The notes beneath the pieces were generated by a model that made no database searches, was not told the DNA's origin, and worked only from the letters and a program-made list of their open reading frames with translations. A program made the translations under genes and the position numbers. 64,000 nt of DNA from a virus. Where the stretch lies: IMG/VR virus record IMGVR_UViG_3300006923_000006, positions 1 through 64,000 of that record. One strand, written 5' to 3'. Of the stretch, positions 18,881-64,000 are shown piece by piece (positions within the stretch are counted from its first letter, which is position 1; each line of letters starts with the position of its first letter).

Positions 18881-19206
18881 TGGAAGCTTGTAGTATATGT
18901 GGCGAGCCTAATAAAAAACTAGACACAGTACATACCAAGTGTTTATCACAACTACAAACATTATGTCATAAGTTTAATGCTGTACTTGAAATTAATAACT
19001 TATACACTGTGCCCAATTTACGAAAATTCATAACAGACGCTAAAAAAGAATCCAACGATGTTAAGCGACTCAAGAGAATCCTAGCTACTTATAAATTTAC
19101 AAACATAGCCTCTTTGCAAAGATATATTCGCGAATCCAAAAAACGAGACCAACTAGAAAAATGGCGGAAAATGGAAAAAAGAGCTATAGGAGCAGACGAT
19201 GATTGA
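18880..19206 (+). CDS. Zinc-binding hypothetical protein (108 aa)
   Basis: CSICGEPNKKLDTVHTKC at the N-terminus suggests a treble-clef-type zinc site; the remainder is a basic helical rod. It overlaps the NMNAT-like gene by 8 bases, so it may belong to the same operon. Confidence 0.6.
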   Translation: MEACSICGEPNKKLDTVHTKCLSQLQTLCHKFNAVLEINNLYTVPNLRKFITDAKKESNDVKRLKRILATYKFTNIASLQRYIRESKKRDQLEKWRKMEKRAIGADDD

Positions 19207-19786
19207 ACAATTAACAAAGCAAGGAAACCGATGTTATTATGAAAATCATTATTATAGATACTACGAACCTAACAAACTCTGGATTTATAGCGGAACATTT
19301 AATCCCCTGCATTCAGCACATTTAGAAATTTTCTTTCACGCAAAACGCAAGATTGGAGAAAAAGACTATCTTTCTTTTGAGACTCCGCTAAAACCATTTG
19401 ACAAAGAAGAAAAAGAGCGTAAACTAGAAGCAGTAGTTCAGCAATTCAATAATCTCTGTCTTCCTTTAATAGTTAGTGATTTTTCTAGCTTTATTGAAAA
19501 AAGAAAAAGACTTGGTGGATTGAATGGTTGTAATTTTGTAGTTGGCGACGATACTTTTAAAAGAATTTTTGACATATCGTATTATCATAACAGCAAAGCA
19601 GCAATGGAGAATTGTCTGGAATCATTAATAGGGTCCAAATTTCTAGTTTATCCTAGACATATGGGACAAACCGAATACAATATAGTATTAGATGATTTTC
19701 CGTATTTACGCGACAATTTCACTTTTGTTAGTGATTTTGCACCGGAGAATATATCATCGACTCAATTGCGGGAACAATCTGTATAG
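19199..19786 (+). CDS. NMN/NaMN adenylyltransferase-like protein (195 aa)
   Basis: YSGTFNPLHSAHLEI (residues ~31-45) is the nucleotidyltransferase motif GxFNPxHxxH, and ENISSTQLREQ near the C-terminus matches the ISSTxxR motif. Together these define the NMNAT/NadD-type family, which joins ATP to (nicotinate or nicotinamide) mononucleotide to make NAD(+) or its acid form. The gene for nicotinamide phosphoribosyltransferase lies 340 bases downstream, so NMN is the likely substrate. Length is usual for a single-domain enzyme. The start overlaps the preceding gene. Confidence 0.85.
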   Translation: MIEQLTKQGNRCYYENHYYRYYEPNKLWIYSGTFNPLHSAHLEIFFHAKRKIGEKDYLSFETPLKPFDKEEKERKLEAVVQQFNNLCLPLIVSDFSSFIEKRKRLGGLNGCNFVVGDDTFKRIFDISYYHNSKAAMENCLESLIGSKFLVYPRHMGQTEYNIVLDDFPYLRDNFTFVSDFAPENISSTQLREQSV

Positions 19787-20123: not shown

Positions 20124-21662
20124 ATGAACTTAACAGAATTCGCAAAAGGCAGAGTACAGATTCCATTCCCACTACAAGCAGACGCCTATACTATTGCTGG
20201 TGAGTGTTTGGCTAGTCCACAAGCTAAAAAGCAATCAACATACAATCTTACCAATCGGCGTAGTCCCGCAGAAGCTTGGCCAGACGTAGCCCAAGATTCT
20301 CGCATGGTGTTTTTTGGTTTGACACACTTTATCAGAAATCATTTAACCCAACATATTACCCACGAACAGATAGACCAAACCATTAAGTTTATGCAAACAG
20401 CACATTCGTTTGGTGGACAACTAAACTTTGACCCAAAACCGTGGCGAAGGGTAGTCAATGAATTTCAAGGTTATATGCCAATTCAAATCGTAGCATTGCC
20501 AGAAGGAAGTACATTCTTTCCTAATGAACCAGTAATACAAGTTTTTTCTCTTGATGAAGGTTTTGGAGAAATGGCGGCACATATCGAAGCTGTAATGCTA
20601 GGTATGGTATCTATTGCTACTGCTAGAGCTACGCTAGGTAGACATTGGTTAGAACAAATCCGAAACTATGTTAGACGAGACGTAGGGCACGATAAAGATA
20701 TTGTAGACCAAACTGCTAGATTTATGATTCATGATTTTGGTATGCGAGCTAGTAGTACGTCAGAGGAATCCGAATTACTAGGTTTGGCTCACCTATTAGT
20801 ATTTCATGGTACTGACACCTTTAACGCGGCGTATTTGGCTAGACAACTAGGAGCAGAACCACCAACGGGAACTAGTATTCTAGCATTAGCACACCGAATT
20901 GTGCAAGGATGGGATACAGAACACTGTGCCTTCTTTAACCAATATTGTGCTAGTCAAAAGTCTAACAAAGTTGCAAGTTATGTTGCAGATTGTTATAATT
21001 TTGACAAAGCTGTTAATCGTTTGGCTGAAATGGCCGACAAAGACAGAACAACAATTGTTGCCAGACCAGACAGTGGAGATTATGTCCAGAATGTTCTTGA
21101 CATCTTAAATAGTTCAGATAAAATTAGGTATATCCAAGGCGATAGTATGACGCCTACCAAAATTAACAACCTTATGAACCATCTATTAGACGAAGGTTTT
21201 CCAGCAACACAACGCGGAATTTTTGGCGTAGGAGGATATCTACGCAATACACCTAACAGAGATTCGCTAAGCAGTGCTTACAAACTATCTGCTGTTAGTG
21301 GATTAAATCCGAAAGTTAAACTTAGCGAGATTGAAGAAAAGGCTAGTATTCCTGGTCCTAATATTCTGACAAGAGAACATTGTAGTATTTACAGTCCAAC
21401 TACTTTTATGACTTATGAGGCAGACGCACAAGGTAAAGACGCACAGGTAGTATACTATGATGGTAACATGGTGAGTAAAGAATGTTTTGGTGATGTATGC
21501 TTGGAACCTTTTTCTGACATTCAATCGCGATGTATTAATGATTTTGATAAGTGGGAAAGCGTAGCAAAAAGACAACCAAATCTAGGACTAGGTAAGTTTA
21601 ATCTTTTTTCTACTGAAGTTAAACGTATTAGAAAAGAGACTTTTAACAAGTATAGGAATTAA
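20124..21662 (+). CDS. nampt: Nicotinamide phosphoribosyltransferase (512 aa)
   Basis: The motifs of NAMPT are in order: HDFGMRASSTSEES (cf. DFGYRGVSS), HGTDTFNAAYLA, ARPDSGD, YIQGDSM and GIFGVGGYL, all of which line the phosphoribosyl and nicotinamide sites in known enzymes. It converts nicotinamide plus PRPP to NMN. At 512 residues it is the usual full length. The neighbours, an NMNAT upstream and a Nudix hydrolase 3 bases downstream, complete a nicotinamide-to-NAD+ salvage route. In phages this gene pair is known to restore NAD+ depleted by NADase defence systems (NARP2-type), which is the likely role here. AACAGGAG ribosome-binding site. Confidence 0.95.
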   Translation: MNLTEFAKGRVQIPFPLQADAYTIAGECLASPQAKKQSTYNLTNRRSPAEAWPDVAQDSRMVFFGLTHFIRNHLTQHITHEQIDQTIKFMQTAHSFGGQLNFDPKPWRRVVNEFQGYMPIQIVALPEGSTFFPNEPVIQVFSLDEGFGEMAAHIEAVMLGMVSIATARATLGRHWLEQIRNYVRRDVGHDKDIVDQTARFMIHDFGMRASSTSEESELLGLAHLLVFHGTDTFNAAYLARQLGAEPPTGTSILALAHRIVQGWDTEHCAFFNQYCASQKSNKVASYVADCYNFDKAVNRLAEMADKDRTTIVARPDSGDYVQNVLDILNSSDKIRYIQGDSMTPTKINNLMNHLLDEGFPATQRGIFGVGGYLRNTPNRDSLSSAYKLSAVSGLNPKVKLSEIEEKASIPGPNILTREHCSIYSPTTFMTYEADAQGKDAQVVYYDGNMVSKECFGDVCLEPFSDIQSRCINDFDKWESVAKRQPNLGLGKFNLFSTEVKRIRKETFNKYRN

Positions 21663-21665: not shown

Positions 21666-22160
21666 ATGCCACTACCTAAAATGGGTGTAACTGCCGACGT
21701 AGCATGGTTTCATATTAAACTAAACGAATATATGAATACTAGTGAAGTATACTTTCTGACAGTCAAACGTAAAAACGAACCGTATCGATACTGTCATGCT
21801 TTGCCGGGAGGTTTTGTTGAACTAAACGAGACTCTTAAACAAGGTGCTAGACGGGAATTGTTTGAAGAGACCCACGGCAATATTGATATGAAACGCCTAC
21901 ACTTTGTTATGATGCTAGACGGAGTTAAACGAGACCCAAGAGGCAGAACGATATCTGCTGTATTTACTACAATGACTTTTGGTGGTTGGAATGATACTTT
22001 TAGTTTTCCAGAACTAGAAGCTGGTGATGATGCAAGTGATTTAAAATGGATGAAACTAGATAATACTAATTTGTTGGCGTTTGACCACCATCTAGCTGTT
22101 GAACAAGCTTTTGCTAAGGCTAGTGAAATCTTTAAAATACCACAAGGAGCAATAGTATGA
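21666..22160 (+). CDS. Nudix hydrolase, ADP-ribose pyrophosphatase-like (164 aa)
   Basis: The Nudix box is complete: GGFVELNETLKQGARREL followed by FEETHG (GX5EX7REXXEEXG), residues ~43-66. The following RDPRGRTIS is typical of ADP-ribose pyrophosphatases, which split ADP-ribose into AMP and ribose-5-phosphate. Beside NAMPT this would remove ADP-ribose produced by NAD+ cleavage and feed PRPP precursors. A Nudix domain is part of the NARP2-type NMNAT in some phages; here it is a separate protein. Confidence 0.9.
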   Translation: MPLPKMGVTADVAWFHIKLNEYMNTSEVYFLTVKRKNEPYRYCHALPGGFVELNETLKQGARRELFEETHGNIDMKRLHFVMMLDGVKRDPRGRTISAVFTTMTFGGWNDTFSFPELEAGDDASDLKWMKLDNTNLLAFDHHLAVEQAFAKASEIFKIPQGAIV

Positions 22161-22366
22161 TAGAATTGGTAGTAGCTGTTTTTATATGGGTTATAATCAT
22201 AATTATTTCTGTATGTGCATTCTGGTCCACAACTTTGTTTAGCCTAATATGTTATAGTGAATACTTAGGCTTAAAAGCTAAAAAACGACTAAACCAGATA
22301 AGAGAAAAAGAACGCAAAGCCAATGCGGTATGGGAAAAAGGACTTAGAAGGAAAATAAATGAATAA
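22157..22366 (+). CDS. Membrane-anchored small protein (69 aa)
   Basis: Overlaps the Nudix stop (ATGA). One long hydrophobic segment (LVVAVFIWVIIIIISVCAFW) followed by a basic helix (LGLKAKKRLNQIREKERK). Function unknown. Confidence 0.55.
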   Translation: MIELVVAVFIWVIIIIISVCAFWSTTLFSLICYSEYLGLKAKKRLNQIREKERKANAVWEKGLRRKINE

Positions 22367-23150
22367 CTTTGGCGATAGAATGAAAAGTTATGAAAAAGCT
22401 TTTGATATCAGACTAAAACCACCATTTGTACTCCGTCTTGATGGCAGAAGTTTTTCTAAGTTTACTAAACAATTTAAAACTATAGACCATCATCCTTTCT
22501 CTGACGAGTTTAGTGATTGTATGGATTTAACATTGTCTCAACTTATGAGAGAAACCAATGCTAGATTCGGATACACACAAAGCGATGAAATTAGCCTATT
22601 GTTTACACAAGATAACCCAGAAAGTCAAACATTCTTTGATGGCAAACTACAAAAACTATGTAGTATAACCTCATGTATAGCCGCTAATACTTTTAATGAT
22701 AATCATGAGTATGGATTAGCTCAGTTTGATTGTCAGGGTTTTAATTTATCAGACGATGAAGTGTGGAATTACTTTTTTTGGCGAGAAAAAGACGCTGTCC
22801 GCAACAGTGTTAGTATGTTGGCCAGACATTATTTTTCACATAAAGAATGTCATAAAAAACCTACTGGTCAACTGATTGAAATGCTGCTAGATTTTGTTAA
22901 CGTAGATTGGTATAAAACGATAGATGACAGATTTAAATGGGGAAAACACGTAAAGTCTATACGAGTAGAACGCCGATACTCAACAATGGAAATCGCCAAA
23001 CTGCCAAGAAAACACGCCGCGAGAAAAAATCCAGAACTTTTAGTTGCAAGGAAAGAAATTCGTGATATGATACCATTGTTCAAAGCGAGAAACCACGGTT
23101 TTAGTCAACAAAAATTCCTCATGCAAGAAGACGCTTATGGTGTTAAATAG
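22359..23150 (+). CDS. Thg1-like 3'-5' RNA polymerase (263 aa)
   Basis: FVLRLDGRSFSKFTK (residues ~23-37) and YTQSDEISLLF (~72-82) are the two metal-binding motifs of the Thg1 superfamily, which adds nucleotides to RNA 5' ends in the reverse (3'-5') direction. Eukaryotic Thg1 adds G-1 to tRNA-His; bacterial and archaeal Thg1-like proteins repair 5'-truncated tRNAs, which is the likelier role here. The gene is full length and followed 13 bases later by an RNA ligase gene. The ATG overlaps the preceding gene after AGAAGGAAAA. Confidence 0.9.
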   Translation: MNNFGDRMKSYEKAFDIRLKPPFVLRLDGRSFSKFTKQFKTIDHHPFSDEFSDCMDLTLSQLMRETNARFGYTQSDEISLLFTQDNPESQTFFDGKLQKLCSITSCIAANTFNDNHEYGLAQFDCQGFNLSDDEVWNYFFWREKDAVRNSVSMLARHYFSHKECHKKPTGQLIEMLLDFVNVDWYKTIDDRFKWGKHVKSIRVERRYSTMEIAKLPRKHAARKNPELLVARKEIRDMIPLFKARNHGFSQQKFLMQEDAYGVK

Positions 23151-23163
23151 GTAACAATATACA

Positions 23164-24153
23164 ATGAATAAAAGCACACATAAATGTCCTGTTGTAACAA
23201 TCAAGATGGAACCACACCCAAACGCAGACCGTTTAGCAGTTGTACGAGTAGATGATTATACTGTTTGCGTAGCTAAAGATATGTGGGAAGATGGTCAAAA
23301 GGCTGCTTATATTCCTATTGAAAGTATTGTTGATACTGATATGCCAATGTTTAGCTTCCTTAAAAAGAACAAGAGATTCCAAAAGATTAAAACATGTAAA
23401 CTTCGTGGTGTTTACTCACAAGGTGTTCTTATTCCTGTAGACAATAGTTACGAATTAGGAACAGACTTAGCCGAACATTTTAATGTTCGTCATGACGACC
23501 CAGAAGCTAAGTTTGAGGCTAATTGTAAAAGTAGCGAAATCGCTGGTCCTAGTAGTTGGGCTGAAATCCCTAAATATGACGTTGACGCTTTGTTAAAGTA
23601 TGGTAGTGATTGGTTTAATGAAGATGAAGATGTTATGGTAACGGAAAAGGTTCATGGTACTAACTTCCGTTGTCTTTACTGTGCTGACACTGGAAAGTTT
23701 TATGTTGGTAGCCGTAAACAATGGCTTGCAGAACAAGATGGTTGTTTGTATTGGAAAATATTTCGGAATTGTCCAGAACTAGCTACTTTCTGTAAAGAAA
23801 ATCCTCAATACATGTTTAGAGGAGAAGGTTATGGTATGCAAAAACACTATACTTATGGTATTACTGATGGTAAGTATGGAGTAGTAGGTTTTGACCTTAT
23901 GTATAAGAATAGAACATATGTTAGTTCTCGACTTCTTAGGAACATGCTAAAAACATATGATATCCCGCAAGTGCCATTAGTTGGTGTGTATGGTTACAAT
24001 CTTGAACTAATGCAAGAACTAGCAGAAGGTCCAAGTCTACTCGGTGGTAGTTCTCCAAGAGAAGGCATTGTTGTCAAACCTCTTAAAGAATGTCAAAGCG
24101 ATACGTTTGATAGGGTTATTCTTAAACTTATTGGTAGTGGATATAAAGGATAA
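23164..24153 (+). CDS. Rnl5-type ATP-dependent RNA ligase (329 aa)
   Basis: An N-terminal OB-fold module (residues ~1-110: HPNADRLAVVRVDDYTVC) precedes a nucleotidyltransferase domain with motif I VTEKVHGTNFR (Lys the adenylylated residue), FRGEGYG, EGIVVKP (motif IV) and ILKLIGSGY (motif V). This order, OB-fold first, is that of the Deinococcus DraRnl (Rnl5) family, known to seal 3'-OH/5'-phosphate nicks in RNA. Directly downstream of the Thg1-like gene, it suggests an RNA end-repair pair. Confidence 0.9.
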   Translation: MNKSTHKCPVVTIKMEPHPNADRLAVVRVDDYTVCVAKDMWEDGQKAAYIPIESIVDTDMPMFSFLKKNKRFQKIKTCKLRGVYSQGVLIPVDNSYELGTDLAEHFNVRHDDPEAKFEANCKSSEIAGPSSWAEIPKYDVDALLKYGSDWFNEDEDVMVTEKVHGTNFRCLYCADTGKFYVGSRKQWLAEQDGCLYWKIFRNCPELATFCKENPQYMFRGEGYGMQKHYTYGITDGKYGVVGFDLMYKNRTYVSSRLLRNMLKTYDIPQVPLVGVYGYNLELMQELAEGPSLLGGSSPREGIVVKPLKECQSDTFDRVILKLIGSGYKG

Positions 24154-24156
24154 TTA

Positions 24157-24777
24157 ATGCTGTGTACAACCTGTAATAAAGACAAAAAAGAACTTCAAGG
24201 AAAAAATCAGGTATGTTATCGATGTAGAAACTCTAAAAATGCGGGATTTATCAAGAAAATGCCCAAAACACCTAAACAGCCGAAACCAGACAATGTAGTA
24301 TACGGCAAGTGTTCTGAGTTGGTTGATAGGATTACCATACATACGGGGCCAGAGCCAACTAAGCTTAGGGCAGGAATTGCTGATTCTCTATTTGTAATCG
24401 GTACTACAAAAATCGCGGAACTTAACCACATACCGATAGATGTTGTGCTGGCTAGTTCTGATTTTGAGTGGAATATTCAAAATATAGAAAACGTGGATTA
24501 CGTGGCGATTGTCCTAAACAAAGCTTGCGAAAAACCCGAAACTATGTTACAGTTGGGTTTGTTGTTGGGTTCTGGTGCGGGCAACTTTTCACCAGAAGTA
24601 GGTATAGTTTTGGGAAATAAAAAGCTTGACAATCCCGTGAGGTCGCTTATAACTAGATACAAGACACATAAGATTTTTCCTTCAAGGAATTTGCTTATGC
24701 GAGATATTCGAGAACGATTCTCTTACGTGTGGTTACAAGATACCTCTTTAACAAGACCAGATTATCTAAATTTATGA
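24157..24777 (+). CDS. Zinc-ribbon protein of unknown function (206 aa)
   Basis: CTTCNKDKKEL ... QVCYRCRNSK forms an N-terminal CxxC...CxxC ribbon. The C-terminal 150 residues look like a Rossmann-type alpha/beta domain (DSLFVIGTTKI, DVVLASSDFEW, DYVAIVLNKAC). I do not recognise the family. It lies between the RNA ligase and a DNA methyltransferase. Confidence 0.6.
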   Translation: MLCTTCNKDKKELQGKNQVCYRCRNSKNAGFIKKMPKTPKQPKPDNVVYGKCSELVDRITIHTGPEPTKLRAGIADSLFVIGTTKIAELNHIPIDVVLASSDFEWNIQNIENVDYVAIVLNKACEKPETMLQLGLLLGSGAGNFSPEVGIVLGNKKLDNPVRSLITRYKTHKIFPSRNLLMRDIRERFSYVWLQDTSLTRPDYLNL

Positions 24778-24823
24778 ATCATTCTGTTAGAGGATACAAT
24801 ATGAAAATCATAGGTGAAGCTAT

Positions 24824-25537
24824 ATGAAATACATGGGTAGCAAAAATCGTCATGCTAAACATATCTTACCTATTGTCTTAAAAGACCGAACAGAAGACCA
24901 ATGGTATGTTGAACCTTTTGTTGGTGGTTTTAATGTGATTGATAAAGTAGACGGCAAAAGAATAGGTAACGATATTCACTTTTATTTAACAGAGTTATTT
25001 AAGGCTGTTCGTGACGGATGGGAACCTCCTTCTGTAGTACCAGAAGACCTATATAAACACATTAGGCTAGATAAAAAGAATTACAGTCCAGAATTGGTTG
25101 GTTTTGTAGGTTTTGGCTGTTCGTATTCTGGTAAGTGGTTTGGTGGTTACGCAAGAGGAAACGACAGTAAGGGCAATCCGCGAAATTACGCCAACGAGAG
25201 TCGGAAAAATATTCTTAAACAAGCTGACAAGATTAAAAATGTAATAATTGAGAATGCGTACTACTGGAATTTACACATACCACCCAAAAGCATTATCTAC
25301 TGTGACCCTCCATACGCCAATACTACCAAATATGCTGAAGATTTTAATCATGAAAAATTTTGGGAGTGGACTAGACAACGAGTAAAAGAAGGGCATAATG
25401 TCTTTATAAGTGAGTACACGGCACCAAGCGATTTTGTTTCTGTGTGGGAAAAATCGGTTAATAACACTTTAGTTAAAAATACTGGTTCAAAACGTGGTAT
25501 TGAAAAGCTTTTTGTATGGAGAAATAATGAACGATAA
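24824..25537 (+). CDS. Dam-type (D12 class) adenine DNA methyltransferase (237 aa)
   Basis: KYMGSKNRHAKHILP (cf. the KWAGGK motif), VEPFVGGFNV (FxGxG-like SAM site) and IIYCDPPYANT (DPPY catalytic motif) identify a D12-class N6-adenine methyltransferase. Dam enzymes usually methylate GATC, but this window appears to contain no GATC (see findings), so the target may differ. An 8-codon mini-ORF (24801-24827) with AGAGGA overlaps its start, suggesting translational coupling. Confidence 0.88.
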   Translation: MKYMGSKNRHAKHILPIVLKDRTEDQWYVEPFVGGFNVIDKVDGKRIGNDIHFYLTELFKAVRDGWEPPSVVPEDLYKHIRLDKKNYSPELVGFVGFGCSYSGKWFGGYARGNDSKGNPRNYANESRKNILKQADKIKNVIIENAYYWNLHIPPKSIIYCDPPYANTTKYAEDFNHEKFWEWTRQRVKEGHNVFISEYTAPSDFVSVWEKSVNNTLVKNTGSKRGIEKLFVWRNNER

Positions 25538-25718
25538 AGAAAAAGTAAACGGCTTTATTAAACAACGTAGTGTCTTAGTAAGCTTCTGTAAGGCTTGCGA
25601 AATATATACGGTTCATTGTCCAGAATGTCAGGCTAACTATTGTGGTGTTGGATGCTCGTGTAATAAGACGTTTCTTAAACTTCAACAACATGCATTAGAT
25701 GTACTATTTGACCAATAG
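25527..25718 (+). CDS. Cys-rich small protein (63 aa)
   Basis: Overlaps the methyltransferase end. CKACEIYTVHCPECQANYC and CSCN make at least one zinc site. Unknown role. Confidence 0.55.
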   Translation: MNDKEKVNGFIKQRSVLVSFCKACEIYTVHCPECQANYCGVGCSCNKTFLKLQQHALDVLFDQ

Positions 25719-25739
25719 ATAGACTTAAGGACAAACAAG

Positions 25740-26504
25740 ATGAACCAGATAATAAATAAAATCTATAACGAAAATTGTCTTGCAACTACAAAAAGAATGC
25801 CAGATGATTTTGTAGACTTGACGGTAACTTCTCCACCATATGACGACCTAAGAAAATACAACGAATATTCGTTTGATTTTGAAAGTGTTGCTAAAGAACT
25901 GTTAAGAATAACTAAACCAAATGGCGTTATTACATGGGTGGTTTCTGACAGTAGTATCGGTGGTGGAGAAACACTAACGTCTTTTAAACAGGCTTTGTTT
26001 TTCAGAGATATTGGTTTTACAATTAATGATACTATGATTTATACAAAACCAAACAGAAGACCTAGACAATATAGCGCACATAGATATGAACAAATTTTTG
26101 AGTATATTTTTGTATTAGTCAAAGGAACGAAAAGTAAAACATTTAATCCCATAGAAGAAAAGTGTTTAAACGCTGGCAAAACGATTAACTTTTCGTCTAG
26201 GGACCACGACGGCGATAAAATAAATACTAAAAAAACAGTGAAAGTAAAAAAGACAAAAAGAAAAGGTAATATATGGCACTACACTAACAATAGTACTGGA
26301 ATAAATCATCCAGCTATATTTCCTGAACAATTAGCAAAAGATATGATTATAAGCTGGAGTAATGAAAACGATATAGTGTATGACCCCTTTATGGGCAGTG
26401 GAACCACTGCTAAAGTATGTATTCTAAATAACAGAAATTATATTGGTTCTGAAATATCAGCAGAATACTGTAAAATAGCTAAACAAAGGATACTAAATGG
26501 CTAA
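25740..26504 (+). CDS. DNA methyltransferase, TSPPY type (254 aa)
   Basis: VTSPPYDDLRKY (motif IV, residues ~30-41) comes before DPFMGSGTTAKV (motif I, ~217), the beta-class order of N4-cytosine or N6-adenine methyltransferases. It is full length for a stand-alone enzyme without a cognate endonuclease nearby. It overlaps the PARP gene by 8 bases. Likely protects phage DNA from host restriction. Confidence 0.9.
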   Translation: MNQIINKIYNENCLATTKRMPDDFVDLTVTSPPYDDLRKYNEYSFDFESVAKELLRITKPNGVITWVVSDSSIGGGETLTSFKQALFFRDIGFTINDTMIYTKPNRRPRQYSAHRYEQIFEYIFVLVKGTKSKTFNPIEEKCLNAGKTINFSSRDHDGDKINTKKTVKVKKTKRKGNIWHYTNNSTGINHPAIFPEQLAKDMIISWSNENDIVYDPFMGSGTTAKVCILNNRNYIGSEISAEYCKIAKQRILNG

Positions 26505-28059
26505 TAAACTCAAGCGTAGCACAATCCCAACAGGACATACCAAAAACGATTTTCAATGTTATGGTCCTCCTGCTCTTAAAGATGGTCAATTTGACGGTAC
26601 TATGATTTGTGATATGGGTTGTTTTAAACAAGGAGAATGTGATTCAAATAAATACTATAATGCCGCAGTAGTTCAATCTAATGTTAACAAAGGGTGGTAC
26701 ACGTATTTTGAATATGGTCGTACAGGACAATCTTCTAAGCCACAATTTCAATTTATCGAATGTAGTTCAAAAGAAGAAGCACAAAGAGAGTATTGTAAGC
26801 AACTACATTCAAAAAATGATAAACGCGGTATGTGGGTTAATCATCCCATTCTTGGTCGTCAGTTACAACCTAAACCAAACAAGGATTGCTATCTAGTAAG
26901 ACCACAAGCAACTAGAAGTACTGGTTTACCTAGTGCTAAGACTATTGTTGCAGAGTCAGAGGTAAAGGTTAAGACAACTTCAAGGAAAAATACTATTAAA
27001 TCCGCGATTGATACCCAAACAGCTAGTCTTTTGCGAGATTTGAATGTGGGAACGGTTAATTACACTCGTAGTAGTATGGCCGATAGTGCTTTACCTACTA
27101 TATCTGCTATTGCGGAAGCTAGGATGATTTGCGATGAAGCTACGAAGGTGGCTAACACCTTAACCGACGATTTTGAACACAACAAAGAACTTGTAAATCT
27201 AACTAATATGTTGTATGGTCGTATTCCCAAAAAGAAAGACCGCAAAGATACTAATTGGGTATTGACACCGCAAAATATTGCTATGTGGCGACAAGACCTA
27301 GACGCTTTCGAGTCTGCTAGTGGTGCCGCAATTGACATTGAAGAAATTACGGAATGTCCACTGTCTGCTATGAATTTACGCAAACTTAAGTACGTGCCTA
27401 AAAACTCAGAAAAAGGCGGGTTTATCTATGACTGGATGAAATCCGCAAGTAAAAATGTACACCGGCAATACGGTAGTCTTAAGATTAAAAATCTGTGGTA
27501 TGTTGAGAGAGTTGGCGATATTGATAAGTTGGCTACGGCACAAAAAAGAATTGCTAACAATCCCGTACCTAAAAATGCAGAAAAACCACTGTTTCAACCA
27601 CGGAAAAGACTTGACACAATTGACAAAGAACTGTATACTAATAGTGGTACACATATGATGTTTCATGGTACTCGTTCTGTTAACGTGACGGGAATTCTAA
27701 GAGAAAGCCTACGAATGCCAAAAACTCTTTCTAATGTAGTTATTACAGGCAGTATGTTTGGTGACGGGCTATATTGGGCTGATGACTGGCGAAAATCCGC
27801 AGGTTATACATCTTTGCGTAATAGTTATTGGTCAGGTGGTGATGGTCGTGTTAAAAACCGAAATGCTTTTATGTTTGTGTGTGATGTTGCGTTAGGTAGA
27901 CCATGGATTGCTCCTAGTAGCGGTGCTTATAACGGACCACCAAAAGGTTATCATTCTATCTTTGGTAAATCAGGTCGCTCTGGTGTACAAAACAATGAAT
28001 TTATTACTTTTAATCTAGATACTCATAGACTTAGGTATCTTGTGGAGTTTGACGCATGA
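26497..28059 (+). CDS. Poly/mono(ADP-ribose) polymerase with WGR domain (520 aa)
   Basis: Residues ~55-130 contain the WGR-type segment GWYTYFEYGRTGQ. The C-terminal ~200 residues have the PARP catalytic triad motifs: MMFHGT (His), GDGLYWADD (Tyr) and NNEFITFN (Glu), i.e. the H-Y-E set of chain-forming PARPs. A helical regulatory-like domain (ISAIAEARMICDEATKVA) precedes the catalytic domain, as in eukaryotic PARP1/2. It transfers ADP-ribose from NAD+ to protein or DNA. The N-terminus (CYGPPALKDGQFDG) is unfamiliar. PARPs are rare in phages. A WGR-ligase and a macro domain follow in the same operon. Confidence 0.92.
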   Translation: MANKLKRSTIPTGHTKNDFQCYGPPALKDGQFDGTMICDMGCFKQGECDSNKYYNAAVVQSNVNKGWYTYFEYGRTGQSSKPQFQFIECSSKEEAQREYCKQLHSKNDKRGMWVNHPILGRQLQPKPNKDCYLVRPQATRSTGLPSAKTIVAESEVKVKTTSRKNTIKSAIDTQTASLLRDLNVGTVNYTRSSMADSALPTISAIAEARMICDEATKVANTLTDDFEHNKELVNLTNMLYGRIPKKKDRKDTNWVLTPQNIAMWRQDLDAFESASGAAIDIEEITECPLSAMNLRKLKYVPKNSEKGGFIYDWMKSASKNVHRQYGSLKIKNLWYVERVGDIDKLATAQKRIANNPVPKNAEKPLFQPRKRLDTIDKELYTNSGTHMMFHGTRSVNVTGILRESLRMPKTLSNVVITGSMFGDGLYWADDWRKSAGYTSLRNSYWSGGDGRVKNRNAFMFVCDVALGRPWIAPSSGAYNGPPKGYHSIFGKSGRSGVQNNEFITFNLDTHRLRYLVEFDA

Positions 28060-28331
28060 TAAATAAAAGACCAGACGAATTTAAATCCCTAGCGGGTAAA
28101 GTAGACCACTTAGAATATTGTGCTAAATATGAAAACACAGAAGTAGGCGAACATTGGTCTGCTTTATCTCGTTTGTGCGGATATACTTATTGTATGGATG
28201 ATGATTTTGTTAAAGCTTTAGAAGCAGAAGTTGATAGTCAAATCATGTTTTTACATTCAGACTGGGAATGGGTAGAAGAAGAAGAAACATATACTCGTAA
28301 AACCAAACGACTTAAACACTACGGAGAATAA
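28056..28331 (+). CDS. Hypothetical acidic protein (91 aa)
   Basis: Overlaps the PARP stop (ATGA) and lies in the PARP-ligase operon. Acidic and Trp-rich (FLHSDWEWVEEEETY). Function unknown. Confidence 0.55.
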   Translation: MINKRPDEFKSLAGKVDHLEYCAKYENTEVGEHWSALSRLCGYTYCMDDDFVKALEAEVDSQIMFLHSDWEWVEEEETYTRKTKRLKHYGE

Positions 28332-28332
28332 T

Positions 28333-28548
28333 ATGAGTTTTTTCAAACCAAAAGGTATTCTGTTTGCTGTTTATATGAAAAGCGGTAACGTAATTAGATT
28401 TCGGGCTAATGATTTGGAATATATAAACGGTAAACAAACCGGCGGTAATCTAATCAAAGAAATGTCTTGGGCACATGTTTCAAACAAACTTAAATTATCT
28501 ACCATTGACGTAGACCAAATTGAAGCTATTGTAAGGGAATCAGAATGA
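28333..28548 (+). CDS. Hypothetical protein (71 aa)
   Basis: Beta-type sequence (GILFAVYMKSGNVIRFRAND). Starts 1 base after the previous stop and overlaps the ligase start (ATGA). Unknown. Confidence 0.55.
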   Translation: MSFFKPKGILFAVYMKSGNVIRFRANDLEYINGKQTGGNLIKEMSWAHVSNKLKLSTIDVDQIEAIVRESE

Positions 28549-29660
28549 AACTACCAACACTCTACAAACGCTCAAGCGTAGGTAAGTTACAGTCGTGGAA
28601 TATATGGTGTGGTGATGGCTTTTTTGAAATAGATTGGGGACAAGTTGACGGTGCAAGACAACTTAAACTCAAAAATAACATCAAGGGAAAAAATATTGGT
28701 AAAGCCAATGAGACCGATAGTCTAGAGCAAGCTGCATTTGAGGCAAGAAGCAAATGGAAAAAGCAAATTGATAAGGGGTATTCGGAAACTATCCCGGCAG
28801 AAGACGAGAAAAAGTTTTTGCCTATGCTTGCACAAAGATATGATAAACACGCAAAGAAAATTACTTTTCCTGCATACTGGCAACCCAAACTAGATGGTCT
28901 AAGGTGTACTGCTCATTTTGAGAACAATAAGGTTGTGCTTAAATCTAGACGTAATAAGGTGTTTTCTGTTTTACAACATATTGAAGAACATCTTTGGCCT
29001 CGTATGGATGAAAATATTGTTTTTGATGGAGAATTATATACTCATGGCGAAGATTTTCAAAAACTGGTATCTGCTATTAAACGTGATGAAAAATCGGATT
29101 TTAGTAACAAAATTCAATTACATGTTTATGACATTTACTTTAAAGACGAACCTGATATGAGTTTTGAACGAAGATGGCAAGAATTGTCATTGTTTTTCCC
29201 TGTTTTTGAATATAAAAATCCCACCAAACATAAAGTATGTCTAGTCCGTACCAAACCTGTAAATAATGTTCAACACGTTCTTAATGCTCAAGAACTCGCG
29301 TTAGCGTGGGGTTATGAGGGAATCATGCTTCGCAACTCTCACGGGACTTATGAAGTTGACCGTCGCTCATATAATTTGCAAAAAGTCAAAAAATTCCTTG
29401 ACAAAGAGTACAAAATAGTCGATACTAAAGAAAACGAAAACATGAAAGGAACTTGTGTCTTTGTTTGTGTGACCGAAACCGGCACGCGATTTAAGGTTAT
29501 GCCAGAAGGAAACCAACAACAACGCCAAGAATACTGGAAAAATTCCGATAAATACATTGGAAAACTCTTGACAGTTAAGTTTTTTGAGTATACAACTAGT
29601 GAAAACCCCGTACCAAGATTTCCGATTGGAACCGGAATTAGAAATTCTTGGGATATGTAA
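28545..29660 (+). CDS. WGR-fused ATP-dependent polynucleotide ligase (371 aa)
   Basis: Residues ~10-80 form a WGR-like domain (LQSWNIWCGDGFFEIDWGQV). The rest is an ATP-dependent ligase: motif I YWQPKLDGLRC (adenylylated Lys), ENIVFDGELYTHG (motif III), LHVYDIYF, GYEGIMLRN (motif IV), LQKVKKF (motif V), and a C-terminal OB domain (GTRFKVMPEGNQQQR). WGR domains in PARPs read DNA breaks, so this is plausibly a break-directed DNA ligase working with the phage PARP two genes upstream. RNA as substrate cannot be excluded. Confidence 0.9.
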   Translation: MKLPTLYKRSSVGKLQSWNIWCGDGFFEIDWGQVDGARQLKLKNNIKGKNIGKANETDSLEQAAFEARSKWKKQIDKGYSETIPAEDEKKFLPMLAQRYDKHAKKITFPAYWQPKLDGLRCTAHFENNKVVLKSRRNKVFSVLQHIEEHLWPRMDENIVFDGELYTHGEDFQKLVSAIKRDEKSDFSNKIQLHVYDIYFKDEPDMSFERRWQELSLFFPVFEYKNPTKHKVCLVRTKPVNNVQHVLNAQELALAWGYEGIMLRNSHGTYEVDRRSYNLQKVKKFLDKEYKIVDTKENENMKGTCVFVCVTETGTRFKVMPEGNQQQRQEYWKNSDKYIGKLLTVKFFEYTTSENPVPRFPIGTGIRNSWDM

Positions 29661-29671
29661 GGAGAATCATA

Positions 29672-29845
29672 ATGCCCTGCCGTGAACCCTGTTTCTATTG
29701 TGATGATTTACAAGTTGTTGATGAACCAGTATGCCATTTGTGTGAATGTAACGAACCTCACAGCAGTTGTGATGATAGTTACTATATTGTCATAGAATGT
29801 CCAGTATGCCAAGAGGAGGATGAAAGGATAGATAATGCAAACTAA
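29672..29845 (+). CDS. Cys-rich zinc-binding protein (57 aa)
   Basis: ATG after AAGGAGAATC. Twelve cysteines within 57 residues (CREPCFYCDD, CHLCEC, CPVCQ), i.e. at least two zinc sites. It overlaps the macro-domain gene. Unknown partner. Confidence 0.6.
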   Translation: MPCREPCFYCDDLQVVDEPVCHLCECNEPHSSCDDSYYIVIECPVCQEEDERIDNAN

Positions 29846-30371
29846 ATACCATATTGGAGATGCAACACGACCAATCATGGACAATGGGGGTAATCACCTT
29901 ATATTGCACGTTTGTAATGATTCGGGAGGATGGTCAAGTGGTTTCGTTATGGCTCTTAGTAAAAGATGGAAAGAGCCAGAATCAAGATATAAAACTTGGC
30001 ATCTTAATAATGAAGAATTGTTTGGAGTGCAAAATAATCCATTTAAACTTGGTCGTGTTCAATACTTTAAAGTAGACCACCGTTTATGGGTAGGCAACAT
30101 GATTGCTCAATCAGACCCTGGTGGATTTGAAGATTTCCCGCCAATTCGGTATCAGTCTCTCGAAGAGTGTTTTATGCGAATTCGAGCGAATGCGGTGGAA
30201 GGTCTAGCAAACGATGCTATAATTACTTTTCATGGACCCCGATTTGGTTCGGCTTTAGCTGGAGGAAAATGGTCAAAAGTTATAGGGATTATGGAACGAG
30301 TTTTTGAACACGTTGATATTGAATTCCATGTGTATGACCTAGAAGAAATAGAAGGAACAATCTATGAGTAA
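29835..30371 (+). CDS. Macro-domain protein, ADP-ribose binding/processing (178 aa)
   Basis: LILHVCNDSGGWSSGFVMAL (residues ~22-41) is the macro-domain nucleotide-binding loop with the NDxGxxxxGF pattern, and AIITFHGPRFGSALAGG (~130) is the second glycine-rich loop. Such domains bind ADP-ribose and remove it from proteins, RNA 2'/5' ends or O-acetyl-ADP-ribose, or dephosphorylate ADP-ribose-1''-phosphate. In an operon with a PARP it is likely the eraser. The link to RNA ligases in this window also fits processing of ADP-ribosyl products of RNA repair. Confidence 0.88.
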   Translation: MQTKYHIGDATRPIMDNGGNHLILHVCNDSGGWSSGFVMALSKRWKEPESRYKTWHLNNEELFGVQNNPFKLGRVQYFKVDHRLWVGNMIAQSDPGGFEDFPPIRYQSLEECFMRIRANAVEGLANDAIITFHGPRFGSALAGGKWSKVIGIMERVFEHVDIEFHVYDLEEIEGTIYE

Positions 30372-30389
30372 ATTACAGGAAATATTAAA

Positions 30390-31439
30390 ATGAACAAAAT
30401 AAAAATTACTTACAGTAAAAACGTAAACAAATACTATATTAGTAACGACAAGGGAAGTTTATCACAATATCTTAGTAGAGATTTACAATGGAATCTTTCG
30501 TGTATCACCTGTTGGTATAAAACAAAAGGAGAAGCACAAAAGACCGTTGATAGATACTTGGAAAAATGGAAAAGTATTCAACACAATCGTCACGGTTATT
30601 ACATAGTGATTGGTCGTCGTCAATGGGTGTCTAAAAACCTAAAAATAATTGATGACACCAATGGTAGTTCGCCAAAATGGTCAGGATATCATACCACATA
30701 TCAAGACGCTGTTGACACATATAACAAATACCTATTAAACACAAAGGAGAAAGAAATGCAAGACAACACAAATTCAGAATGGGAAGATGACGTTGATGAA
30801 ATCCTAGACACTTTTTGTGCTTTGGACCAGGTATTTACTGCTTATGACGTAAGTAAAGAGGTTCAGCGTGTAAGGAAAGATAATGATTTGTCTTTTGTTC
30901 GTCATGACACTATGAAAAACTATATTCATGCTCAAATGCTTGCTGAAAAAATGAGTGTACGTCAAGACGGTTTGTATGCTAGAGAACTACGCGATAGCGT
31001 CAATAGTATGCGACTACCTAGTAGAGCATGGGTGTACTCACCCGTTACGAATGATGCAGACGACACAGACGATACGAACGACAACACATGTGACAACAAC
31101 AACAGTAGTGGTTGTGCTACTGGTTGTGGTAATGTATGTAGGAAGCCTTCTACGGGAGTTAATTTCGACAAACGTGGTGGTGTATGTATCTCTAATAAGC
31201 TACTATCACAAATTGGCGTACATGCTGGAGATATGGTGCGGATTTACGAAAATGGCGTTAATAGCTTTTTGGTAAGCAAAGACCCAATTACTGGAACTCA
31301 ACCACTTGCTACATACACAGCTACACATAGCGGTAATGTTCGTCCTCGCAAAAAGGTGATTGAACAATGTGGATTGTGTGGACAAAACCTAGTTGGTCAG
31401 ATTAATGGTGGCAAACTTATTGTCGCTACAAAAGGATGA
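30390..31439 (+). CDS. Hypothetical protein with AbrB-like C-terminal domain (349 aa)
   Basis: The N-terminal ~110 residues hold two strand-strand-helix repeats (YSKNVNKYYISNDKG; HNRHGYYIVIGRRQWVS). After an Asp/Asn/Cys-rich linker (DDTDDTNDNTCDNNNSSG, CATGCGNVC), residues ~250-300 (NFDKRGGVCISNKLLSQIGV) resemble an AbrB-type swapped-hairpin DNA-binding domain. An in-frame ATG at 30756 with AAAGGAGAAAG could start a separate 227-residue form. A 9-codon ORF couples it to the macro-domain gene. Confidence 0.6.
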   Translation: MNKIKITYSKNVNKYYISNDKGSLSQYLSRDLQWNLSCITCWYKTKGEAQKTVDRYLEKWKSIQHNRHGYYIVIGRRQWVSKNLKIIDDTNGSSPKWSGYHTTYQDAVDTYNKYLLNTKEKEMQDNTNSEWEDDVDEILDTFCALDQVFTAYDVSKEVQRVRKDNDLSFVRHDTMKNYIHAQMLAEKMSVRQDGLYARELRDSVNSMRLPSRAWVYSPVTNDADDTDDTNDNTCDNNNSSGCATGCGNVCRKPSTGVNFDKRGGVCISNKLLSQIGVHAGDMVRIYENGVNSFLVSKDPITGTQPLATYTATHSGNVRPRKKVIEQCGLCGQNLVGQINGGKLIVATKG

Positions 31440-31921
31440 ATAATATGCTAATAATTATGAGGTCAATTCCCGGCGCGGGAAAATCAACTCTTGCCCAAAA
31501 AATAAAAGACAAACTAGAAAGTCCTCTGTGTTATATTTGCAGTACAGACGACTACTGGAAACGACCAGACGGTTTATACGACTTTAACTTCAAGCTATTG
31601 GACACTGCTCACACATGGAATTTTATTCGTGTGTGCTACGAACTAAGATTAAATCACGATGTAATCGTCGATAATACTAACACGACTTGGAAAGAATTTT
31701 CTAAGTATGTGATGTTTGCTAAAGAACACGGACACGAAGTCTTTCTAGCCGAACCCGAAACCGACTGGAAATTTGATGCTCAAAAATGTTTCGAGAAAAA
31801 TACACACGGTGTTCCACTAGAATCAATTCAGAAAATGCTTGACAGGTGGGAAAATTCTGCTACAATTTGTAAAACTCATGATTTGCGGTATTTTGATGTA
31901 AACTATAATTACAATTTTTAG
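31436..31921 (+). CDS. Polynucleotide kinase-like P-loop protein (161 aa)
   Basis: SIPGAGKSTLAQKI is the Walker A loop, STDDYW the substrate-side Asp motif, and VDNTNTTWKEF the typical N4BP2/PNK family motif. Similar to the kinase domain of T4 Pnk without the phosphatase domain; it would phosphorylate RNA or DNA 5'-OH ends. Its overlap with the upstream gene and position 9 bases before a T4 Rnl1-type ligase strongly suggests a kinase-ligase pair for tRNA repair. Confidence 0.85.
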   Translation: MNNMLIIMRSIPGAGKSTLAQKIKDKLESPLCYICSTDDYWKRPDGLYDFNFKLLDTAHTWNFIRVCYELRLNHDVIVDNTNTTWKEFSKYVMFAKEHGHEVFLAEPETDWKFDAQKCFEKNTHGVPLESIQKMLDRWENSATICKTHDLRYFDVNYNYNF

Positions 31922-31930
31922 GAAAACAAG

Positions 31931-33031
31931 ATGCTAGAAGTACAAAAATGGTTGCGAGAATTCAACTGTCTTGACAGACTAAAAGACCAACTTGGTATCA
32001 AGTCTACCGTACACGAAGACGGGCGGGTTATCTTGAACTACGGAATGATTGATAGTCCCAAGCGGCATAAAATTGTACGAGAATGCAGAGGCTTAGTTCT
32101 TGACAGTAAAGATGATTGGAACTTAGTAGCTCGGTCGTTTTTTCGGTTTTTTAATTTGAATGAAATACCGGAAGAAACTGACGAATTCGTATGGGAAAAT
32201 TGTAATATCCAACATAAAGAAGATGGTTCTTTGTTGGTAGTCTATTACTATAAAGGCCAATGGCATGTTAACACTAGAGCAAGTTTTTCAACTGGTCAAG
32301 TCGGAGACAATCCGATTACATTCCGCGAACTTGCCTTAAAAGCTATTCCAGAAAGCTTTTGGAACAACGCCAATAAATCTAGCACTTACGTATTTGAATT
32401 GTGTTCATTGTATAACAAGATTGTACGTACATATCAAACACCTACTGTATTTCTTCTTACAGTATTTGATGGACTACATGAAATTGCTCCTAATTTTGTA
32501 GATAGTGAAGCTAGAATTACGGGTGTACAAAGACCACAAAGTCTACGTTTTGAAAATATCGAACAGGTTCAAGAATATCTCAACATAGAATCTAATAAAG
32601 ACAAAACATTTGAGGGAGTGGTATTAAGAGATATTAATAATCTGCGTATTAAATGTAAAAACCAAAATTATCTTTGTTTACACAGAATGAGTAATAATGG
32701 GTCTCCGTGTAGTCCTAAAAATGTATTACCCTTTGTGCTTGCTGGCGAATTAGATGAATTGTTTTTGTTTTTCCCCGAAGTTAAAGAATACGCATTACAA
32801 ATTAAAGCCAAAGTTGATAAATGGCAACAAGAGATAGACGACTTATGGTATGTGTGGGGCGATATTGAAAATCAAAAAAAGTTTGCCCTTCGCGTTAAAG
32901 ACCATCCGTTTTCTGGCTGTTTGTTTAAGGCTAGAAAAATGAGTACCAATCCTGTTGACGAATTTAAAAACAATCCTAACGCTATTTTAAAGAGATTACT
33001 TAAAAGATATGAAAACAAATTATTTATATAA
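31931..33031 (+). CDS. T4 Rnl1-type RNA ligase (366 aa)
   Basis: HKEDGSLLVVYYY contains motif I (KEDGS, Lys adenylylated), RECRGLVLD upstream is typical of the family, FEGVVLRD is motif IV and RIKCKNQNYL motif V. The C-terminal domain is helical, as in T4 Rnl1. T4 Rnl1 with Pnk reseals tRNA cut in the anticodon loop by host anticodon nucleases; the same two activities are adjacent here. It is the second RNA ligase in the window, besides the Rnl5 type at 23164. Confidence 0.92.
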   Translation: MLEVQKWLREFNCLDRLKDQLGIKSTVHEDGRVILNYGMIDSPKRHKIVRECRGLVLDSKDDWNLVARSFFRFFNLNEIPEETDEFVWENCNIQHKEDGSLLVVYYYKGQWHVNTRASFSTGQVGDNPITFRELALKAIPESFWNNANKSSTYVFELCSLYNKIVRTYQTPTVFLLTVFDGLHEIAPNFVDSEARITGVQRPQSLRFENIEQVQEYLNIESNKDKTFEGVVLRDINNLRIKCKNQNYLCLHRMSNNGSPCSPKNVLPFVLAGELDELFLFFPEVKEYALQIKAKVDKWQQEIDDLWYVWGDIENQKKFALRVKDHPFSGCLFKARKMSTNPVDEFKNNPNAILKRLLKRYENKLFI

Positions 33032-33938: not shown

Positions 33939-34521
33939 ATGAATCAATGGATTACTTCAGACAGTCACTTTCGGTCATCGTAATATATGCGGGCCAGAAG
34001 TTTCAGATTGGGATAGAGGATATAGAAACTTTGACAATATTGAAGAGATGAACAATACTCTTGTTAATAACATTAACAGTGTAGTTAAGAATAAAGATGT
34101 TCTATGGCATCTTGGAGATTGGGCATTTGGTCCAAAATCTTTATTTCATACCTACAGAGAACGTATTAATTGTGAAGACATTCGTCTAATTTACGGAAAT
34201 CATGACAAATATATTCGTAAAACACCAGAATTACGAGATATGTTTACCGCTTGTTATGATTATAAAGAAATTAGAATGGGTAAAACTCTAGTATGTATGA
34301 TGCATTACCCTTTGGGTAGTTGGAACGAAATTGGCCGTGGTAGTATTAACCTTTTCGGACATACCCATAATAGTTATTCTAGAACGATTGGTCGCCAAAT
34401 GGACGTTGGTGTTGACCGTCACAACTTTTTTCCTCTAAATTTGGAAGATTTGGTTGACAAAATGAAAAAACAGGATATTGTCACAGTGGACCATCACGAT
34501 GACGAAACTTCTTATCACTAA
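33939..34521 (+). CDS. Metallophosphoesterase, needs a +1 frameshift (about 193 aa)
   Basis: ATG 33939 follows AAAGGAGGG and encodes MNQWITSDSHF, after which an extra base shifts the frame; skipping C 33972 continues as GHRNICGPEVSDWD. Joined, SDSHFGHRN is the first metal motif of calcineurin-type phosphoesterases, and the rest follows in order: WHLGDWAFG, IYGNHDKY, MMHYPLGSW and LFGHTHNS. The break is at TTT-CGG, where a slip of the Phe tRNA from TTT to TTC would give the right frame and CGG is a rare-looking codon here. It may be programmed frameshifting, a real mutation or a sequencing error. The downstream ORF alone would start at 34048 without the first motif. Confidence 0.75.
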
Positions 34522-39004: not shown

Positions 39005-39907
39005 ATGCACATAATTGAAAGACTAACTAAAAACAAAGTAATACAACCTCCGCAGTGGTTACCCACTAATGTACACTATCTCGTAATTACTGGTAGTGAG
39101 AGTTATGGTGTATCTTCTGGTAATTCAGACATTGATGTTAAAGGTATATCCATTCCTCCTAAAAACATGTTATTCCCACATTTAGATGGTAAAATTCCAG
39201 GTTTTAATTGGCCAAGCGAAAAAGAATACAACAAAAAAACCAATTGGCAATCACACCACAATCATGATGTAAGCACAGGTAAAGAATACGACCTTGATAT
39301 TAAGTCTATTACTAGGTTTTTCTTTTTAGCATACGGTTGTAATCCTGATATTATTGACAGTCTATTTGTTCCTCCAAGGTGTATATTGTTTGAATCTAAA
39401 GCAGGACAACTAATGAGAGACGAGAGACATTTGTTTCTGTCTAAACTAGGTTGGAATAAGTATAAAGGATACGCTTATGGACAAGTCCGTAGATATCTTT
39501 ATGGTGATGATTACAAACCAGAAGGTAAAAGAATAAAAATCGTAGAACAATATGGCTATGATACCAAAGGTGCTTATCACGTAGTTCGTCTTCTTAACGA
39601 GATTGAGCAAATTCTAACCACTGGCGATTTAAATTTAGAAATCAACAGAGAACAACTCAAAAGTATTCGTAACGGCGAATGGACCAAAGAACAGATTCTG
39701 GAATATTTTCACAATAAAGAAAAACAACTTGAGAAAATTTACTTAGAATCAGACCTACAAGCAAAACCAGACAAAGAAAAAATCGAAGAATTGCTTCGCG
39801 AATGTCTGAAAATACAGTATAATGAACTTGAAATCGTGATTGACAAAAACAAAGACCGCAAGACATTAGAAATGGTCTATAGTCTACTACAGGAAAGGAT
39901 GTATTAG
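39005..39907 (+). CDS. RlaP-like nucleotidyltransferase (300 aa)
   Basis: YLVITGSESYGVSSGNSDID (residues ~25-44) is the pol-beta GS...DxD active-site motif of the PF10127/RlaP group. A helical C-terminal domain follows. RlaP-type proteins were named for their association with RNA ligases in RNA repair operons (Burroughs and Aravind). Coming right after a tmRNA gene and in a genome segment with two RNA ligases and a Thg1-like polymerase, a role in RNA end repair is a reasonable inference; its substrate is not known. Confidence 0.78.
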   Translation: MHIIERLTKNKVIQPPQWLPTNVHYLVITGSESYGVSSGNSDIDVKGISIPPKNMLFPHLDGKIPGFNWPSEKEYNKKTNWQSHHNHDVSTGKEYDLDIKSITRFFFLAYGCNPDIIDSLFVPPRCILFESKAGQLMRDERHLFLSKLGWNKYKGYAYGQVRRYLYGDDYKPEGKRIKIVEQYGYDTKGAYHVVRLLNEIEQILTTGDLNLEINREQLKSIRNGEWTKEQILEYFHNKEKQLEKIYLESDLQAKPDKEKIEELLRECLKIQYNELEIVIDKNKDRKTLEMVYSLLQERMY

Positions 39908-53324: not shown

Positions 53325-53397
53325 GGGCGCATAATCCAACAGTAGAGATAACACTCTTAAACAGTGTCCAGTCTCGGTGCAAATCCGAGTGCGCCTA
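53325..53397 (+). tRNA. tRNA-Leu(UAA)-like with short variable loop
   Basis: GGGCGCA/TGCGCCT acceptor, ACACT-CTTAAAC-AGTGT anticodon arm (anticodon UAA) and CTCGG-TGCAAAT-CCGAG T-arm, 73 nt. The D-region is weak (ATCC...GAGAT). Leucine tRNAs normally have a long variable arm; this one has only CCAG, and the T-loop begins TG instead of TT. Charging with leucine is therefore not certain. Confidence 0.8.
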
Positions 53398-53460
53398 CTT
53401 GTATAATACAATGTTCTGTCCGAGGCACGAACGAATAACAAAAACAGCGGTTCAACTTCG

Positions 53461-62959: not shown

Positions 62960-63028
62960 GCCAAGATATGCTGGTGCAAAAGCTGCTTTCATAAGGCAGT
63001 ACTGAGGGTTCGTTTCCCTCTCTTGGCT
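62960..63028 (+). tRNA. tRNA with CAU anticodon (Met/Ile type)
   Basis: GCCAAGA/TCTTGGC acceptor, CTGCT-TTCATAA-GGCAG anticodon arm (anticodon CAU), GAGGG-TTCGTTT-CCCTC T-arm, discriminator T: 69 nt. The D-arm is short (GCT...AGC). It could be elongator Met or a lysidine-modified Ile tRNA. The next gene starts 4 bases after its end. Confidence 0.75.
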
Positions 63029-63031
63029 CTT

Positions 63032-63968: not shown

Positions 63969-64000
63969 ATGAAAGCTAAATTTTACCAAGTTGGTGGTTG
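63969..64000 (+). CDS. Start of a probable tRNA/poly(A) nucleotidyltransferase (partial)
   Basis: The window ends after MKAKFYQVGG. FYQVGG is the usual opening of the head domain of CCA-adding and poly(A) polymerase-like enzymes (LVGGxVRD) seen in phages. With only 10 residues this is tentative, but it fits the tRNA-rich surroundings. Confidence 0.45.
   Translation, partial: MKAKFYQVGG

Follow-up and report, generated by a model that had tools for sequence, protein, structure and literature searches.

Virus record IMGVR_UViG_3300006923_000006 of the IMG/VR database is a contig of 163,651 bases. Its first 64 kb (64,000 nucleotides, hereafter the window) carry genes for six enzymes of RNA ends: a Thg1-like nucleotidyltransferase, an Rnl5-type RNA ligase, a polynucleotide kinase (PNK)-type kinase, a T4 Rnl1-type RNA ligase, an RNA-ligase-associated nucleotidyltransferase (RlaP) and a short CCA-type enzyme. 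Probably these genes serve a large tailed phage as an RNA-repair set for counter-defence, housed together with genes for the rebuilding of NAD+. What was observed directly is which families the enzymes belong to, that their catalytic residues are intact and how the genes are ordered; the activities are those predicted from the families. Viruses are known to reverse the damage that infected bacteria inflict on themselves in order to halt an infection. Thg1 is widespread in phages, and we know of no job described for it there; the present data favour a part in end repair over one in tRNA maturation.

Enzyme families and catalytic residues

The genes of the window were scanned with Pfam, PHROG and NCBIfam profiles, and each of the six RNA-end genes that a first-pass annotation had named from the DNA letters was matched at its position. 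The adjacency of Thg1 and Rnl5 (22359-24153) and of PNK and Rnl1 (31436-33031) was likewise borne out. Thg1, the Rnl5-type ligase, Rnl1 and RlaP are full length. The catalytic residues are intact in all six enzymes, as seen in alignments to viral relatives or, for the CCA-type enzyme, in its own sequence. No close relatives turned up when IMG/VR was scanned with Thg1, Rnl1 and NAMPT as single proteins, and profile searches were needed.

In Thg1, residues D28, G29, D76 and E77 (the metal-binding D-G and SDE motifs) are invariant among 10 aligned sequences. The best PDB match of its profile is BtTLP (4kgk, 4e-78), with eukaryotic-type Thg1 at 5e-23 to 6e-27, and the window protein has VRNSVSM at the place of HINNLYN, the motif of tRNA-His-type Thg1. 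Judged by sequence, the enzyme is of the bacterial Thg1-like protein (TLP, end-repair) type and not of the eukaryotic tRNA-His type. The Rnl5-type ligase consists of an N-terminal OB fold and a C-terminal nucleotidyltransferase domain, with K162, E221, E300 and K321 invariant; it scores 114 bits with TIGR02306/DRB0094, below the equivalog cut-off of 151, and its closest solved structures are Naegleria Rnl5-type ligases (3e-7). Rnl1 retains the KxDG motif and the motif V lysines, with K96-x-D98-G99, E156, E228, K241 and K243 invariant in the alignment. In RlaP the GS...DxD signature is present (G30, S31, D42 and D44 invariant). The CCA-type enzyme, read beyond the window, is 227 aa long, with DVD and RRD corresponding to the class II head-domain motifs DxD and RRD; the short phage family phrog_24229 spans about 245 positions.

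The kinase is a single-domain protein of 161 aa that aligns to positions 3-145 of the 295 of phrog_505. The top PDB match of its family profile is T4 PNK (2e-16), and its predicted fold (predicted local distance difference test score 84) matches the 5'-OH polynucleotide kinase of Clostridium thermocellum first and T4 Pnkp next. The C-terminal 3'-phosphatase domain of T4 Pnkp is absent from the 161-aa kinase, so another protein must heal the 3' ends. A metallophosphoesterase gene nearby is a candidate; its homologues adjoin Thg1 or PNK in loci L025, L012 and L060 of other viruses, where intact copies exist. In the window, the N-terminal metal-binding motif lies in another frame than the rest of the gene, an interruption that reflects either an assembly error or decay.

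Proposed mode of action

In the proposed scheme, modelled on T4 Pnkp/Rnl1 and on the proposals for jumbo phages, tRNAs of the infected bacterium would be cut by effectors of the PrrC/RloC, VapC, Cas13a, PARIS or retron type. The kinase would phosphorylate the 5'-OH end at the cut, RlaP would put back a nucleotide lost there, and Rnl1 would rejoin the anticodon loop. Trimmed 3' ends would be rebuilt by the CCA enzyme and trimmed 5' ends by the TLP-type Thg1, with the opposite strand as template, while Rnl5 may seal nicks in paired RNA. NAMPT, NMNAT and Nudix enzymes could restore NAD+ that NADase defences have consumed, so that the entire region would be a site for the reversal of host self-damage.

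Co-occurrence and clustering in other viruses

Matches to Thg1 were found in 124 phage records and at least 580 IMG/VR stretches. Co-occurrence was assessed on a panel of 46 Thg1-bearing records including this one, with statistics on the other 45. ThyA served as the single control gene, and 25 ThyA-bearing records without Thg1 as the comparison set. The panels are of modest size, fragments are common among the IMG/VR records, open reading frames (ORFs) were called simply, and some p-values shift with the grouping of lineages. Among the 45 viruses, Rnl1, PNK and the CCA enzyme are found together with odds ratios of 10-12 (z 2.8-3.0, length-corrected), and Rnl1 and other RNA ligases with an odds ratio of 24 (z 2.7); ThyA has no such association with the RNA-repair families there. 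In 8 of 12 genomes the distance between Rnl1 and PNK is at most 10 kb, where 1.3 such genomes would be expected (P about 5e-5); another RNA ligase is close to Rnl1 in 7 of 15, where 1.8 would be expected. Rnl1, PNK and the CCA enzyme thus co-occur as an RNA-repair module beyond the effects of genome size. The pattern is weaker for RlaP and Thg1: RlaP is present in 20/45 records with Thg1 versus 3/25 of the ThyA-only records, and Rnl1 in 16/45 versus 3/25, a difference that fades after the length fit.

RNA-repair islands recur in unrelated viruses. The genome of Vibrio phage D181 holds genes for the CCA enzyme, RlaP, Thg1, Rnl1 and PNK within 10 kb (L008). Two Rnl1 genes, RlaP, PNK and Thg1 occupy about 8 kb in L023; L078 combines NAMPT, a metallophosphoesterase, Rnl1, Thg1, an RNA ligase and RlaP; and L060 combines RlaP, a PNK with phosphatase, a metallophosphoesterase and Thg1. 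The islands of L023, L060, L078 and the L025 group hold three to six of these genes each, and the tight orders RlaP-PNK-Thg1 and Thg1-metallophosphoesterase-PNK were seen repeatedly. D181 and similar cultured phages make the role of phage Thg1 testable. Physical clusters that include Thg1 are seen in several islands, but overall no more often than in the ThyA control.

The first-pass annotation had named conservation of the gene set as a check, with neighbours that vary freely among relatives as a sign to the contrary. Around Thg1 this is partly what was found, as the nearest neighbours differ between viruses, whereas the Rnl1-PNK pair keeps together. Clustering with RNA-repair genes that is specific to Thg1 was not established in comparison with ThyA loci. 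Since Thg1 neighbourhoods do not exceed that control, the main grounds for counting Thg1 as part of the set are co-occurrence and a small number of islands. A clustering match over Thg1 in seven loci was set aside as an apparent antisense ORF. An unnamed family of about 170 aa with no Pfam match (L064:8994-9491 and relatives) directly precedes Thg1 in six loci, that of Vibrio phage D181 among them.

Several results weigh against the proposed repair set. After length correction, Thg1 is linked to RlaP at z 1.6 and to Rnl1 at z 0.8, and the co-occurrence of RlaP with RNA ligases drops to z about 1.2-1.4. Other RNA-repair genes stand near Thg1 in 14/59 lineages and near ThyA in 7/27. The metallophosphoesterase, the candidate 3'-end healer, is out of frame in this record. 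Rnl1-family proteins can also act in tail-fibre attachment, as the name of phrog_562 indicates.

A sizeable chance, somewhat short of even, is given to two separate modules that stand near each other by chance. One would be an NAD+/ADP-ribose block (NMNAT, NAMPT, Nudix, PARP and macro-like genes) with Thg1 and Rnl5 as passengers and the other an ordinary T4-like PNK-Rnl1 pair; the apparent toolkit would then only reflect the way in which large phages crowd middle-stage accessory genes into the same stretch. This agrees with Thg1 neighbourhoods no richer in RNA-repair genes than those of ThyA, with Thg1-ThyA proximity (6/20) equal to Thg1-RlaP proximity (6/20), and with the NAD+-salvage genes near Thg1 described below; the co-occurrence of Rnl1, PNK, CCA and RNA ligase genes, specific in that ThyA has none, and the recurring tight gene orders with Thg1 argue for a repair set instead.

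Gene order and features of the window

The features of the window are listed in Table 1. Thg1 and Rnl5 belong to a packed run of NAMPT (20124), Nudix (21666), orf69, Thg1, Rnl5 and orf206, in which the intergenic distances range from -8 to +13 nt. The NMNAT, NAMPT and Nudix genes lie directly upstream of the Thg1-Rnl5 pair. A second packed run ends with orf349, PNK and Rnl1 (intergenic distances -4 and +9 nt). Two DNA methyltransferases, a WGR-PARP protein, an ATP-dependent DNA ligase and a macro-like protein stand between the Thg1-Rnl5 and PNK-Rnl1 pairs. As these non-RNA genes are interleaved between the pairs, the region is more than RNA repair.

Table 1. Positions and profile matches of features in the window
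Feature	Coordinates	Strand	Evidence
NMN adenylyltransferase-like (HIGH nucleotidyltransferase), NAD+ block	19199..19786	+	PF01467 2e-6, TIGR00482 1e-7, both weak
NAMPT/NAPRT-family phosphoribosyltransferase, NAD+ salvage	20124..21662	+	NF006629 3e-60 (below cut-off), PF04095 3e-16
Nudix hydrolase	21666..22160	+	PF00293 2e-13
Thg1-like protein (TLP type), 3'-5' nucleotidyltransferase	22359..23150	+	PF04446 1.4e-22, phrog_4717 6e-61
Rnl5-type RNA ligase, N-terminal OB fold	23164..24153	+	PF09414 1e-20, PF21189 1e-12
Uncharacterised protein, Cys-rich zinc-ribbon-like N-terminus, 3 nt past Rnl5	24157..24777	+	no Pfam/PHROG match
WGR + PARP-type ADP-ribosyltransferase, not an RNA-end gene	26497..28059	+	PF00644 4e-19, PF05406 3e-8
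ATP-dependent DNA ligase	28545..29660	+	PF01068 8e-23, phrog_114 5e-76
Macro-like phosphatase	29835..30371	+	phrog_335 2e-21 ('phosphatase'); no Pfam match; macro predicted from sequence
5'-OH polynucleotide kinase-type P-loop kinase	31436..31921	+	AAA_33; phrog_505 polynucleotide kinase 4e-12
T4 Rnl1-family RNA ligase	31931..33031	+	PF09511 8e-21, phrog_562 7e-43
Metallophosphoesterase, N-terminal motif out of frame	34048..34521 (region 33940-34521)	+	PF12850 3e-7
RlaP (RNA-ligase-associated Pol-beta nucleotidyltransferase)	39005..39907	+	PF10127 8e-16
tRNA-Leu(UAA), short variable loop, CCA not encoded	53325..53398	+	ARAGORN
tRNA-Met(CAU), CCA not encoded	62960..63029	+	ARAGORN
CCA-adding-type nucleotidyltransferase, start; continues past the window	63969..64000	+	phrog_24229 2e-45, PF01743 3e-23

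The interleaved DNA ligase and WGR-PARP genes would also suit ligases and a kinase that work on the ends of DNA and, with those two proteins, repair phage DNA; T4 PNK-type kinases are known to act on DNA too. Rnl1 and Rnl5, however, are RNA-ligase families, RlaP, CCA and Thg1 enzymes act on RNA, and the RNA families co-occur with each other; a DNA-end function is accordingly rated very improbable.

The WGR-PARP fusion was found in only 15 phage records. The copy of the 595-kb phage LR756511 is 53% identical to that of the window at 99% coverage; this phage also has Thg1, Rnl1, an Rnl5-type ligase and RlaP, but scattered. Other unusual metabolic genes of the window encode an IMP dehydrogenase/GMP reductase (54607-55821), a saccharopine dehydrogenase-like protein (56502-57593) and a Clp protease (45245-45955).

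tRNA genes

The virus encodes five tRNAs, none of them for His and none with an encoded CCA, and its tRNA-Thr(GGU) has a G1-A72 mismatch. The missing CCA and this mismatch would fit maturation of the phage's own tRNAs, in which the CCA enzyme completes the CCA-less tRNAs and Thg1 corrects their 5' ends. Among 305 tRNA genes in Thg1-bearing viral DNA, 15 have a mismatch at position 1, mostly initiator tRNA-Met, in which such a mismatch is normal; with initiator tRNA-Met set aside, no excess of 5' defects was found in the 305 genes. In genomes G027 and G028, CCA is encoded in 49 of 50 tRNA genes and a CCA enzyme is carried nonetheless, so that there the enzyme is not simply a maturation enzyme; in the present virus it could be one. 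Own-tRNA maturation is, on balance, improbable. The first-pass annotation had left the choice between the repair of tRNA cut at different places and the maturation of odd tRNA genes in the same window. The second, as far as Thg1 is concerned, is not supported, as there is no excess of 5' defects and the virus lacks a tRNA-His, and the correction of 5'-defective phage tRNAs by Thg1 was dropped. Phage tRNAs free of 5' defects favour the repair of cut tRNA, with which the families, the motifs, the co-occurrence of Rnl1, PNK, CCA and RNA ligase genes and the recurrent islands (L008, L023, L060, L078) are also consistent.

An Rfam search of the window at gathering thresholds gave no matches, both window tRNAs falling below the tRNA threshold. 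The tRNA-Leu(UAA) gene (53325-53398) has a class I (short) variable loop, which is unusual for a bacterial tRNA-Leu. The assigned TTG start of a sulfotransferase-like gene (63023-63967) overlaps the 3' end of tRNA-Met (62960-63029).

NAD+-salvage and other anti-defence genes near Thg1

With mild dereplication, NAMPT, NAPRT or NMNAT genes lie within 10 kb of Thg1 in 9/64 lineages versus 0/40 for ThyA (p 0.012); with stricter grouping of lineages the counts are 7/59 versus 0/27 (p 0.09). In the reverse scan, Thg1 occurs in 5/80 NAMPT-centred loci and ThyA in 0/80. As the enrichment loses significance with the stricter grouping, it counts as no more than a lead, one that hints at shared regions of counter-defence. 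In one viral group the anti-CBASS gene acb1 is located at a distance of a few kb from Thg1 (L046 by PF23474; L062, L064, L072 and L083 by clustering). In another (L085, L087, L094 and L095), NAMPT, PRPP synthetase-like, SIR2, HAD-like and Nudix genes cluster with Thg1, and NADAR is also there in L085, L087 and L095, an arrangement like that of NARP1.

Should the association hold, a single strategy against depletion would comprise both the repair of RNA and the rebuilding of NAD+. A stronger form, considered doubtful, places the Thg1-like proteins of viruses in one joint unit for reversing damage: the repair of RNA ends and the rebuilding of NAD+ would be encoded together, one transcript (here NAMPT-Nudix-orf69-Thg1-Rnl5) would answer defences that cut tRNA as well as those that deplete NAD+, and the two activities would be linked biochemically or by regulation.

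Comparison with known systems

The RNA-repair function itself has already been proposed (PMC7824862, PMC2904730). The set described here is unusually complete and lies in a genome below jumbo size; the present analysis adds figures for co-occurrence, evidence against tRNA maturation and the lead on NAD+. For jumbo phages, a complement against host tRNA cutting that includes RlaP, CCA, Thg1, PNK, Rnl1, NAD+ countermeasures and macro domains was proposed in 2021 (PMC7824862). The family list and the proposed role are the same here, but the window belongs to a genome of 164 kb that carries nearly the whole list. Thg1 was described as sporadic in that paper, whereas the matches reported above are numerous.

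The T4 pair of Pnkp and Rnl1 repairs tRNA (Amitsur 1987, cited as reference 47 in PMC12409363). As in T4, a PNK-type kinase adjoins an Rnl1-family ligase, with the kinase fold and the Rnl1 motifs conserved; unlike in T4, the kinase has no 3'-phosphatase domain and Rnl5, Thg1, RlaP and CCA enzymes are added. The Pnkp of Clostridium thermocellum (kinase-metallophosphoesterase-ligase) is the best fold match of the kinase, and the window holds kinase, metallophosphoesterase and ligase genes within 3.1 kb; these are, however, separate genes, the metallophosphoesterase is interrupted in frame and the ligase is of the Rnl1 family.

Bacterial gene neighbourhoods of Thg1, PNK, MACRO and RNA ligase were reported in 2010 (PMC2904730). 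The window resembles them in having Thg1 near PNK, a macro-like protein and RNA ligases, but its set is on a phage and its Thg1 adjoins Rnl5 and NAMPT-Nudix rather than PNK. With NARP1 NAD+ reconstitution (PMC12774641) and the canonical NAMPT-NMNAT salvage, it shares NAMPT-family and NMNAT genes on a phage. It differs from NARP1 in that no Adps-like gene was recognised beside the window NAMPT, the substrate of which, as far as the genes tell, may be PRPP or ADPR-PP.

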